A stretch of DNA of 64,000 nt from Chloroflexota bacterium. Its GTDB lineage: Bacteria; Chloroflexota; Dehalococcoidia; JACPQK01. Shown one piece after another: positions 22,059 to 25,163 of this stretch (the first letter of the stretch is position 1; every line of letters begins with the position of its first letter). The stretch lies in contig JACPQM010000072.1 in assembly GCA_016190505.1 (NCBI GenBank), positions 1 through 64,000 of the forward strand. The letters run 5' to 3'. The notes beneath the pieces were generated by a model, which was given only the letters and a program-made list of their open reading frames with translations, did not search any database and was not told the origin of the DNA. Position numbers and translations under genes: made by a program.

Positions 22059-22637
22059 GTGAAACTACTCATGGGGATGCTGGTGGTGGCGGCCCTGGTG
22101 ATAGGGGCGCCACTAACTGCATCCACAGCCCTGGCCCAAGGCTTCACATTTGAGGTGCCCAAGACCAGCCTCAAGGTGTCTGACGTGGGCAAGATCAAGG
22201 TGGAGGCGGAGATAGACGAGGAGGGCAAGACCGTCGAGTTCCGCGTTGACGACCGCGAGTACATGGGCATGGATGTGGAGTTCATGCTCAACGGCGTGAG
22301 CTATACCGCCCACCACTTGATGGTGACCAACAACCTCGATGGCGAGGACATGATGGGCGACCACAAGGGCACCGTCACCGTCATGCAGAGCGACGGCAGC
22401 GAGTTGGTGTTCGAGTACGAGGGCGAGGCCGACGTGTCCCACATGATGCACAAAGTCGTGGTCAAGTCCCACGGCGACTTCAAGGTCACCGATGCCAGCG
22501 GGGTCTTCGACGACATGGACTTCAAAGGCATCGAGGGCACCTACATGATGAGGATCGTCGAGTACGGGCATGAGTTGGGCTCCGCCGTCGGTTTCAAGTT
22601 CTCCGCCATGGAAGTCATGGAGGAGATCGAGGAGTGA
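22059..22637 (+). CDS. Secreted protein of unknown function (Met/His-containing, acidic)
   Basis: Signal peptide MKLLMGMLVVAALVIGAPLTASTALAQ; good RBS GAGGAGG; no family recognised. Confidence 0.75.
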   Translation: MKLLMGMLVVAALVIGAPLTASTALAQGFTFEVPKTSLKVSDVGKIKVEAEIDEEGKTVEFRVDDREYMGMDVEFMLNGVSYTAHHLMVTNNLDGEDMMGDHKGTVTVMQSDGSELVFEYEGEADVSHMMHKVVVKSHGDFKVTDASGVFDDMDFKGIEGTYMMRIVEYGHELGSAVGFKFSAMEVMEEIEE

Positions 22638-22704: not shown

Positions 22705-23313
22705 ATGAATAGGGTTCTAGCGGTGTTCCTGGCGCTGGCTCTGGTCCTGGGCTTTGGCGCCATGGCCCCGATTAGCATCGTCCAGGCCGGCGACGTCGAA
22801 GACGCCCAGGAGGATTTCGACGAGGCCATAGCCGAAGCCCAGGCGGACTTCGACGAGGCTGTCATGGAGGCCCAGGAAGAGTTCCATGAGACCGTAGCCG
22901 AGCTCAAGGACGAGCTCCACGAAGCCCTGGCCGAAGCCCAGGCGGACTTCGACGAGGCCATAGCCGAAGCCCAGGCGGACTTCGACGAGGCCGTGGCTGA
23001 GGCCCAGGAAGAGCTGGACGAGGCCCTGGCCGAGGCCGAGGATGCCGAGGAGATCGCCGAGGCCCAGGCGGACTTCGACGAGGCCATAGCCGAAGCCCAG
23101 GCGGACTTCGACGAGGCTGTAGCCGAGGCCCAGGCTGAGTTCGACGAGGCCGTCATGGAGGCCAAGGACGAGTTCCGCGAAGCCAAGATGGAGGCCAAGG
23201 ACGAGCTTAGTGAGGCTCTAACCGAGGCCCAGGAAATCCTCGACGAGGCTATCCTGGACGCCCAGGAAACCCTCGATGAGGCCCTGGCCGAGGCGGAAGA
23301 GGTGGAGGACTAG
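22705..23313 (+). CDS. Secreted acidic coiled-coil protein built of 11-residue repeats (AEAQADFDEAV)
   Basis: Signal peptide MNRVLAVFLALALVLGFGAMAPISIVQA then about 15 hendecad-like units. Confidence 0.8.
   Translation: MNRVLAVFLALALVLGFGAMAPISIVQAGDVEDAQEDFDEAIAEAQADFDEAVMEAQEEFHETVAELKDELHEALAEAQADFDEAIAEAQADFDEAVAEAQEELDEALAEAEDAEEIAEAQADFDEAIAEAQADFDEAVAEAQAEFDEAVMEAKDEFREAKMEAKDELSEALTEAQEILDEAILDAQETLDEALAEAEEVED
22816..23117 (+). repeat. Intragenic repeat: three identical 44-nt copies of TTCGACGAGGCCATAGCCGAAGCCCAGGCGGACTTCGACGAGGC
   Basis: Copies at 22816-22859, 22948-22991 and 23074-23117 read directly. Confidence 0.85.
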
Positions 23314-23324
23314 CCACCGCCGCA

Positions 23325-23346
23325 GGGGCGACCGGACGGTCGCCCC
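23325..23346. terminator. Hairpin GGGGCGACCG-GA-CGGTCGCCCC downstream of the repeat-protein gene
   Basis: 10-bp perfect arms; no T-tract, so termination is uncertain. Confidence 0.45.
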
Positions 23347-23369
23347 CACTCTCCACACAGCCTCAGGTA

Positions 23370-23397
23370 GAGCCGCCCCGAATCGTCGGGGCGGCTC
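23370..23397. repeat. Inverted repeat GAGCCGCCCCGA-ATCG-TCGGGGCGGCTC
   Basis: 12-bp perfect arms. Confidence 0.7.
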
Positions 23398-23437
23398 CGT
23401 CTTGCCGGCTTCCCAGCATCGCCAAGATCCACCATCA

Positions 23438-23508
23438 AGTAGGGGCGAAGCATCCGAAGCACCATGCTCGTAGACTTCCACCGTGTGGCCGGATGCTTCG
23501 CCCCTACT
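23438..23508. repeat. Inverted repeat AGTAGGGGCGAAGCATCCG ... CGGATGCTTCGCCCCTACT
   Basis: 19-bp perfect arms (23438-23456, 23490-23508) around a 33-bp loop. Confidence 0.8.
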
Positions 23509-23546
23509 CGGGCGGGGAACATTCTCGTAGCGGTTGCTTATTTCAG

Positions 23547-23580
23547 CATATGCGCATATGATAAACATATTTGATATAAT
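23547..23580 (+). promoter_or_regulatory. Promoter with perfect palindrome CATATGCGCATATG and -10 TATAAT
   Basis: 14-bp perfect palindrome 23547-23560; TATAAT 23575-23580; same 26-bp spacing as upstream of 22059. Confidence 0.65.
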
Positions 23581-23621
23581 ACTCAGAACGGTCAAGAAAC
23601 CGTATCGCAAGGAGGTAAGAG

Positions 23622-24053
23622 GTGAGGCGACTAGTGATGCTCCTGATGGTGGTAGCCGTCGCGTTGGGCTTCGGCGCCATGGCCCCGATTAACATGGTCC
23701 AGGCGGGCGACCTCGAGGATGCCCAGGCGGACTTCGAGGAAGCCGTGATGGAGGCCAAGGACGAGTTCCACGAGACCGTAGCGGAGCTGAAGGACGAGCT
23801 CCACGATGCCCTGGCTGAGGCTCAGGAAGAGCTAGATGAGGCCCTGGCCGATGCCGAGGATGCCGACGAGATAGCTGAGGCCCAGGAGGACTTCGACGAG
23901 GCCGTCATGGAAGCCAAGGACGAGTTCCGAGAGGCCAAGATGGAGGCCAAGGACGAGCTCCACGACGCCATAGCTGATGCCCAAGAGGACCTGGACGAGG
24001 CCCTGGCAGACGAAGAGGAGGACGAGGACGAGGACAACTCCGGACAGGGCTAA
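23622..24053 (+). CDS. Secreted acidic coiled-coil repeat protein, paralogue of 22705-23313
   Basis: MLLMVVAVALGFGAMAPINMVQAGDLEDAQADFEEAVMEAKDEF...; near-identical leader to paralogue. Confidence 0.8.
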   Translation: MRRLVMLLMVVAVALGFGAMAPINMVQAGDLEDAQADFEEAVMEAKDEFHETVAELKDELHDALAEAQEELDEALADAEDADEIAEAQEDFDEAVMEAKDEFREAKMEAKDELHDAIADAQEDLDEALADEEEDEDEDNSGQG

Positions 24054-24224: not shown

Positions 24225-24605
24225 ATGAGGAGACTCCTGTCGCTGCTCCTGGTTGTAAGCATAGCGCTGTCTCTGGGCATCCTGGGCCCCGCTAGCGTGG
24301 CTTTGGCTGACCCGGGACCGGGGAAAGACGGCAGAGGCGACGAAGAGGATATCGAGGACGTTCTTAAGGATATCCGAGGTCTGAGAGACGTCCGCGACCT
24401 GAGAGATGTCCGGGACCTGGATGACCTCCGGGATGTCCTAGACATCTTCGACATAGACATCGAGGACCTGTTCGAAGAAGAGGAGGACATTGACGAGGTC
24501 CTGGAGGAGATCCTGGAAGAGTTCGAGGAGCTCAGCATATTCGCCCCACTGCGGGTAGTGCGGCTGTTGAGGCTACTCTTGCTCCTGGAGCTGCTGAACC
24601 CGTGA
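24225..24605 (+). CDS. Secreted highly charged repeat protein (RDVRDL repeats) with Leu/Arg-rich C-terminus
   Basis: Signal peptide; DIRGLRDVRDLRDVRDLDDLRDVLDIFDIDIEDLFEEEEDIDEVLEE then VVRLLRLLLLLELLNP. Confidence 0.7.
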   Translation: MRRLLSLLLVVSIALSLGILGPASVALADPGPGKDGRGDEEDIEDVLKDIRGLRDVRDLRDVRDLDDLRDVLDIFDIDIEDLFEEEEDIDEVLEEILEEFEELSIFAPLRVVRLLRLLLLLELLNP

Positions 24606-24677: not shown

Positions 24678-25163
24678 CTAATGCGGGCGGGTCACCGAGA
24701 TGCTGACCGGCGCCGGCTCTCCAGGGTGCCAGAAGATGACCACTTTGCCGTAGGTGTCCTCCAGGCTGGCGACCACTTCCGCGGCCTCCTTCTCGCTCAG
24801 GCCGGGCAGGCTGGCCTCGACCTGGGGAATCTCGGTCTCGTGGTAGTGCCAGTTCGCCTTCTCCGCTTCCGGCAGCCCGGCGAAGAGCTGGGGGCTGATT
24901 ATGGTCTCCACGCCGATGAGCCGGGCGTTGGCCTCGTCGCTATCGAACAGCAGGCACTGGCTCACCTGGTCGTTGATGGCCTTGCAGTAGTGGTGCACCA
25001 CCAGGTCGGGCGCATCGTTGATGTGTTTCTTGGCGTCAATGTGCAGTGCAAACCCCGCAGACGGCGCTTCCGCAGCCGCTGGCTGTTTCGAGCAACCGCC
25101 CAGGACTCCTGCCACCACGAATAGCGCTGCTACCAGTGCTGACCAGAGATTGGCCTTGACCAT
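24678..25163 (-). CDS. DUF1264 (OBAP-like) lipoprotein
   Basis: Lipobox GVLGGCSKQP; VVHHYCKAINDQVSQCLLFDSDEANARLIGVETIIS ... WHYHETEIP ... YGKVVIFWHPGE. Confidence 0.75.
   Translation of the reverse strand: MVKANLWSALVAALFVVAGVLGGCSKQPAAAEAPSAGFALHIDAKKHINDAPDLVVHHYCKAINDQVSQCLLFDSDEANARLIGVETIISPQLFAGLPEAEKANWHYHETEIPQVEASLPGLSEKEAAEVVASLEDTYGKVVIFWHPGEPAPVSISVTRPH

Follow-up and report, generated by a model that had tools for sequence, protein, structure and literature searches.

Matched hendecad arms in an apparently lineage-restricted family of predicted exported acidic proteins from a Chloroflexota bacterium

Among described proteins with 11-residue repeats, the FilP/Scy and DivIVA relatives combine near-straight helices, Ala in the core and expansion by whole hendecads in cell-division dimers that carry a DivIVA domain (PMC9858780). 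Hendecads build nearly straight rods, and two-stranded hendecad coiled coils need small core residues, above all Ala, against clashes (PMC9858780). Group-3 LEA proteins, including Deinococcus DosH, are hydrophilic chains of tandem amphipathic 11-mers, the motif of which has hydrophobic positions, acidic or amide residues at positions 3, 7 and 11 and basic residues at positions 6 and 8 (PMC10295645). Antiparallel helical hairpins are found in the RipA N-terminal domain, in SMC arms and in the colicin receptor-binding hairpin. Group-3 LEA proteins are disordered in dilute solution and become helical on drying. The proteins MnxE and MnxF, which accompany the metal-oxidising multicopper oxidase MnxG, bind copper, and a three-His type 2 copper centre has been reported for them (PMC5622069).

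Here we describe three paralogous genes, P1, P2 and P3, from one Chloroflexota genome (assembly of 3.23 Mb, 100 contigs, 85% complete). P1 and P2 lie in the window, by which we mean the whole 64,000-nt stretch that was analysed, and P3 (128 aa) lies on contig C62 (G000:C62) of the same genome. Like the FilP/Scy and DivIVA relatives, the three proteins show an 11-residue repeat, near-straight helices, core Ala and whole-hendecad expansion; unlike them, they are predicted to be exported and to form antiparallel hairpins, and they lack the DivIVA domain. Tandem amphipathic, hydrophilic 11-mers are shared with group-3 LEA proteins, from which P1-P3 differ in charge pattern (the basic positions are absent) and in being predicted to be folded and exported. 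The RipA, SMC and colicin hairpins were among the best Foldseek matches, with no sequence relation to P1-P3. The likeness to apolipoproteins A1/A4/E (PF01442) and, in P1, to FIVAR (PF07554) consists of partial HMM matches and is not found in P3. The family is unusual and has no established relatives among protein families, yet it is built from known parts, namely hendecad coiled coils.

The features of P1 and P2 were as follows.

22705..23313 (+): P1, 202 aa, predicted exported acidic 7+7 hendecad hairpin protein (ORF with Shine-Dalgarno sequence; unit layout; AlphaFold2)
22705..22788 (+): P1 signal peptide, expected cleavage VQA/GD (by inspection; common to P2 and P3)
22804..23034 (+): P1 arm A, 7 hendecads, residues 34-110 (unit layout)
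22816..22859 (+): identical 44-nt copy 1 in P1 (exact repeat comparison)
22936..22991 (+): 56-nt exact repeat in the hinge-proximal inserted units of P1 arm A, including 44-nt copy 2 (22948-22991)
23035..23061 (+): P1 hinge AEDAEEIAE, residues 111-119 (same length in P1, P2 and P3; predicted AlphaFold2 turn inside)
23062..23292 (+): P1 arm B, 7 hendecads, residues 120-196 (unit layout)
23062..23117 (+): 56-nt exact repeat in the hinge-proximal inserted units of P1 arm B, including 44-nt copy 3 (23074-23117)
23622..24053 (+): P2, 143 aa, predicted exported acidic 4+4 hendecad hairpin protein with an acidic tail (ORF; AlphaFold2)
23622..23705 (+): P2 signal peptide (by inspection; alignment of paralogues)
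23721..23852 (+): P2 arm A, 4 hendecads (unit layout)
23853..23879 (+): P2 hinge AEDADEIAE (unit layout; AlphaFold2)
23880..24011 (+): P2 arm B, 4 hendecads (unit layout)
24012..24050 (+): P2 acidic C-terminal tail EEEDEDEDNSGQG, predicted with low confidence (AlphaFold2 pLDDT about 37-54)

An earlier note on this DNA had described P1 and P2 as two paralogous secreted acidic hendecad proteins, and this description was correct, secretion being a prediction. Both open reading frames are present, each preceded by a good Shine-Dalgarno sequence, and the mature parts consist almost entirely of hendecads: the identity at lag 11 was 0.58 in P1 (shuffled mean 0.166, sd 0.027) and 0.38 in P2 (shuffled mean 0.147, sd 0.032). 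A Sec-type signal peptide is predicted for all three paralogues and would direct their export. The signal peptides of P1 and P2, which the note called near-identical, have the stretch LGFGAMAPI[SN][IM]VQAGD[VL]ED in common and are unlike over their first about 14 residues. The expected coiled-coil character was borne out. Hydrophobicity had a period of 3.66-3.69 residues in P1 and P2, which is the hendecad value, with the heptad frequency far weaker, and the core positions by which hendecad coiled coils are classed (11/3 hydrophobic periodicity; core a, d, (e), h) were filled. In the register with F/L at a, Phe or Leu occupied position a in 28 of 28 cases, Ala position d in 26 of 28, Val, Leu or Ile position e in 26 of 28 and Ala position h in 26 of 28; the Ala-rich core is consistent with the small core residues needed by two-stranded hendecad coiled coils. 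The mature chains of P1, P2 and P3 had net charges of -65, -45 and -45, respectively, and lacked Cys, Trp and Tyr. No Cys lipobox, second TM segment or sorting motif was found on inspection of the mature sequences, which speaks against the cell-surface spacer proposed in the note.

All three mature chains followed one layout: GD[VL]ED, arm A, the hinge AEDA[DE]EIA[DE], arm B and a tail. P1 had 7+7 hendecads in its arms, P2 had 4+4 and P3 had 3+3, and all three shared a hinge length of 9 residues. When P1 and P2 were aligned at the DNA level, unit by unit and arm by arm, the extra units of P1 were A1, A5 and A6 in one arm and B1, B2 and B6 in the other, and protein-level gaps (MAFFT) fell at the same places. 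The six extra units were thus mirrored about the hinge, each arm having gained one distal and two hinge-proximal units. The central units of P1 were arm-specific (those of P1 arm A grouped with P2 arm A, those of P1 arm B with P2 arm B), which indicates that the two arms of P1 were lengthened separately and still reached equal size. The matching and mirroring of the arms is what this analysis newly contributes; the third paralogue, the equal arms with their hinge and the mirrored units had been missed by the earlier note, which described the proteins correctly and misread part of their shape.

Divergence at synonymous sites of the mature parts was dS = 0.65 between P1 and P2 and 0.88 between P2 and P3, with divergence at amino-acid sites of 0.08 and 0.11, respectively. 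The resulting Ka/Ks of 0.12-0.13 (mature parts) indicates that the three paralogues have been under purifying selection and that the proteins have been maintained. The three identical 44-nt copies reported for P1 were confirmed as exact (starting at 22816, 22948 and 23074), together with a 56-nt exact pair starting at 22936 and 23062. Repeat copies within P1 differed by dS = 0.26-0.36 (synonymous changes: 3 to 4 per 66 nt). Since these values are below the P1-P2 value, the repeat expansion, which the note called recent, likely postdates the gene duplication and is not brand new; with such small counts, the order of events is surer than the exact dS. Arms A and B of P3 differed by dS = 0.30, compared with 0.88 for P2-P3, and by this measure they are recent copies of each other, so that the equal arms of P3 may be inherited rather than selected.

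The AlphaFold2 model of the mature P1 chain contained two helices (H2-82 and H86-173; mean pLDDT 95.8), as did that of P2 (H28-77 and H81-136). The arms of both had pLDDT of about 94-98, with a 3-residue helix break in the hinge. Both proteins are therefore predicted as antiparallel helical hairpins that turn in the hinge, rather than as the extended 11-mer helices suggested by the earlier note. The input alignment had three rows only, the close paralogues P1-P3, and spurious bends are a known failure of coiled-coil models. Placing the turn at the centre of the AlphaFold2 break gave the one phase in eleven that pairs all core positions (a-h', h-a', d-e', e-d'); this phase was seen in P1 and P2, and P3 shares both hinge and phase. 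Basic residues were sparse. In P1 their distance from the turn was 40-51 residues (arm A) and 42-53 residues (arm B), and in P2 18-33 and 20-35, respectively; in the modelled hairpins, the basic residues of the two arms would lie level with each other, a level that the mirrored insertions of P1 preserve.

P2 and P3 share regulatory DNA, for which the following features were recorded.

23547..23560 (+): perfect palindrome CATATGCGCATATG upstream of P2, with the related CATATGAGCATAT upstream of P3
23575..23580 (+): -10-like TATAAT of P2, kept upstream of P3
24109..24143 (+): terminator-like stem-loop GGGCCGGTGGG..CCCACCGGCCC with a T-run after P2, read from the sequence, with a near-identical copy after P3

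Judging by the common upstream region and terminator, P2 and P3 look like duplicated transcription units. The assembly contained no exact CATATGNGCATAT other than the sites upstream of P2 and P3. Searches for the putative operator with mismatches were not productive: sites with one mismatch (on C77 and C99) gave no clear regulon, and matches with two mismatches were near chance level. The start of P1 lies 67 bases past the end of the gene at 22059, with which P1 may be co-transcribed. This gene (22059-22637, +), directly before P1, encodes an exported protein of 192 aa in which Met and His are abundant (HHLM, MMGDH, HMMHK) and no Pfam family scored over its cut-off. It has homologues on contigs C69 and C99 of the same genome and in G058, where a tandem pair and repeats in open frames of 877 and 974 aa were found; the G058 homologues have no hendecad neighbours, and co-occurrence of the two families was rejected.

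Between P1 and P2, the segment 23438-23508 holds a perfect inverted repeat of 19 nt, AGTAGGGGCGAAGCATCCG. The assembly has 34 occurrences of the core of this repeat, GTAGGGGCGAAGCATCCG, with 17 on each strand, and most of them form inverted pairs about 50-90 bases apart, which makes the element REP- or MITE-like in appearance. Directly 3' of P2, the gene at 24225-24605 (+) encodes an exported acidic protein with RDVRDL repeats and a Leu-rich C-terminus. Its similarity to P2 is weak (31% identity, pairwise E 2e-08); it is perhaps a distant relative of P2, or the similarity is an effect of composition. A DUF1264 lipoprotein gene (24678-25163, -; PF06884, E 9e-28) adjoins the acidic cluster. At the other locus, P3 is divergent from a gene (L041:2036-6970, -; G000:C62) whose 1644-aa product is multicopper-oxidase-like and exported and carries a TM segment at its C-terminus. 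This protein has a full-length homologue in the class member G026 (63-74% identical) and a paralogue on contig C88 of the same genome.

In scans that covered some 85,000 species genomes, no relatives of P1-P3 turned up, and none were found in 100 relative genomes, 393 class genomes and 400 phylum genomes, or in viral contigs, phages and plasmids. Matches outside the genome were all unrelated, for example a phage tape-measure protein (L020) and a peptidyl-prolyl isomerase locus (L012). P1-P3 thus appear to form a lineage-restricted family, present in one genome of those searched; the searched genomes were no closer to the source than class level, and the restriction may reflect sparse sampling. 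The class member G027 (L005, around 1557-1790) has a strong tandem repeat at the DNA level that can be read as units of 11 residues in several frames, with an identity at lag 11 of up to 0.91; it looks unrelated to P1-P3. Solved structures, searched by sequence and by fold, gave generic helical proteins only, with no Foldseek match below E 0.001 and TM-scores of at most about 0.5. FIVAR matched P1 at 32.1 bits (cut-off 29.2) over 47 of 71 profile positions, short of the whole domain, and column-shuffled repeats scored 25.5-29.2 in two of three controls; FIVAR was absent from the families listed for P2, and P3 had no Pfam family. NCBIfam matches (Ag473 and others) were all under cut-off, and these and the PHROGs matches look driven by composition. 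Because shuffled repeats equalled the PF01442 score and, in two of three controls, came up to or just under the FIVAR cut-off, these matches probably reflect the repeat pattern rather than homology. The earlier note had recognised no established family and had named a strong match to a characterised one as its refutation; the searches of sequence families and structures agree with the absence of an established family.

How the two arms are arranged, and why they are equal, can be read in more than one way. P1-P3 could be single helices in extended form, or stalks of parallel coiled coils, with the hinge as a mere phase shift in one long helix; hendecads form near-straight rods (PMC9858780), and the hinge AEDADEIAE has neither Gly nor Pro. 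This is rather unlikely, given the predicted turns in both P1 and P2, the two equal arms and a hinge phase that fits antiparallel core pairing, and a stalk is further disfavoured by the absence of a visible membrane or wall anchor. There is a considerable chance, somewhat below even, that duplication and gene conversion of the repeat tract produced the equal arms and the mirrored units incidentally, with no selection on matching. Such an origin is compatible with the hairpin fold and would remove any role of the proteins as rulers. The homogenised arms of P3 and the exact 56-nt copy in both arms of P1 are as expected from it, and mirrored insertion in P1 would arise by simple random placement in about 6-10% of cases. 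Against it stand the constant hinge length and the arm-specific central units of P1, which point to separate lengthening to equal size.

Three further alternatives concern function. P3 adjoins a multicopper-oxidase-like gene and P1 comes after a Met/His-rich exported protein, as might be seen if the family served a metal-oxidising multicopper oxidase as an accessory subunit, like MnxE/MnxF with MnxG. This is improbable: mature P3 has no His or Cys and so no copper ligands of those kinds, as an MnxE/MnxF-type copper centre would demand, no P3-like neighbour accompanies the oxidase homologue in G026 or the C88 paralogue, and none of the genes beside P1 and P2 was recognised as an oxidase. The neighbourhood not being conserved, the partnership was rejected. 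The LEA-like desiccation protectant put forward in the earlier note would fit the very hydrophilic, amphipathic helical 11-mers, and is very improbable in view of the motif itself, since 0 of 359 windows in P1-P3 had both basic positions and the best partial match was 9/11; the ordered AlphaFold2 fold and the predicted export, rather than a cytosolic location, also argue against it. Most improbable of all is an apolipoprotein-like lipid binder. The PF01442 match on which it would be based (E 1.8e-08) scored 34.7 bits, compared with a curated cut-off of 90, and was equalled by column-shuffled repeats (31.7-34.4 in three of three controls), and the surface is strongly negative.

We consider it probable that P1-P3 are a lineage-restricted exported family in which each protein is one antiparallel two-helix hendecad hairpin, closed in a fixed 9-residue hinge and set in length by unit duplication. 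After removal of the signal peptide, the mature chain would fold around the core F/L(a)-A(d)-V/I/L(e)-A(h), with the turn in the hinge closing the hairpin. The two arms would grow in step through duplication of whole 11-residue units, and the resulting rods would have about 3, 4 and 7 hendecads in each arm. The Ala-rich core would allow close packing of the two helices and leave an outer surface of Glu/Asp (net charge about -45 to -65). Outside the membrane, the proteins would probably remain in solution as stiff acidic hairpins and could use their charge to bind cations or basic partners, with a reach set by repeat number. The assembly (85% complete) gave no Omp85, a family that was detected in 7 of the 14 control genomes. 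The presence of an ordinary LPS-type outer membrane is accordingly unlikely, and the site of the proteins would be the cell envelope or outside. Tentatively, we suggest that the rods are soluble polyanions outside the membrane, where divalent cations or basic partners would be bound or buffered and the number of repeats would tune arm length, a reading that takes in the cation-binding polymer of the earlier note. More doubtful is that they serve as exported molecular rulers, their arms kept equal by selection and their length changed in 11-residue steps by compensating duplications on either side of the turn that keep the register of the core and of the basic bands.

That shuffled repeats reproduced the best Pfam matches means that family searches mislead on repeats of this kind. 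If the ruler reading is true, one cell carries a graded set of rods of 3, 4 and 7 hendecads. If the mirrored arms are real, they would allow hairpin topology to be tested from sequence alone in repeat proteins whose fold is unknown, and the family would be a natural coiled-coil hairpin that grows by paired repeat insertion, a simple route to evolving rod length.
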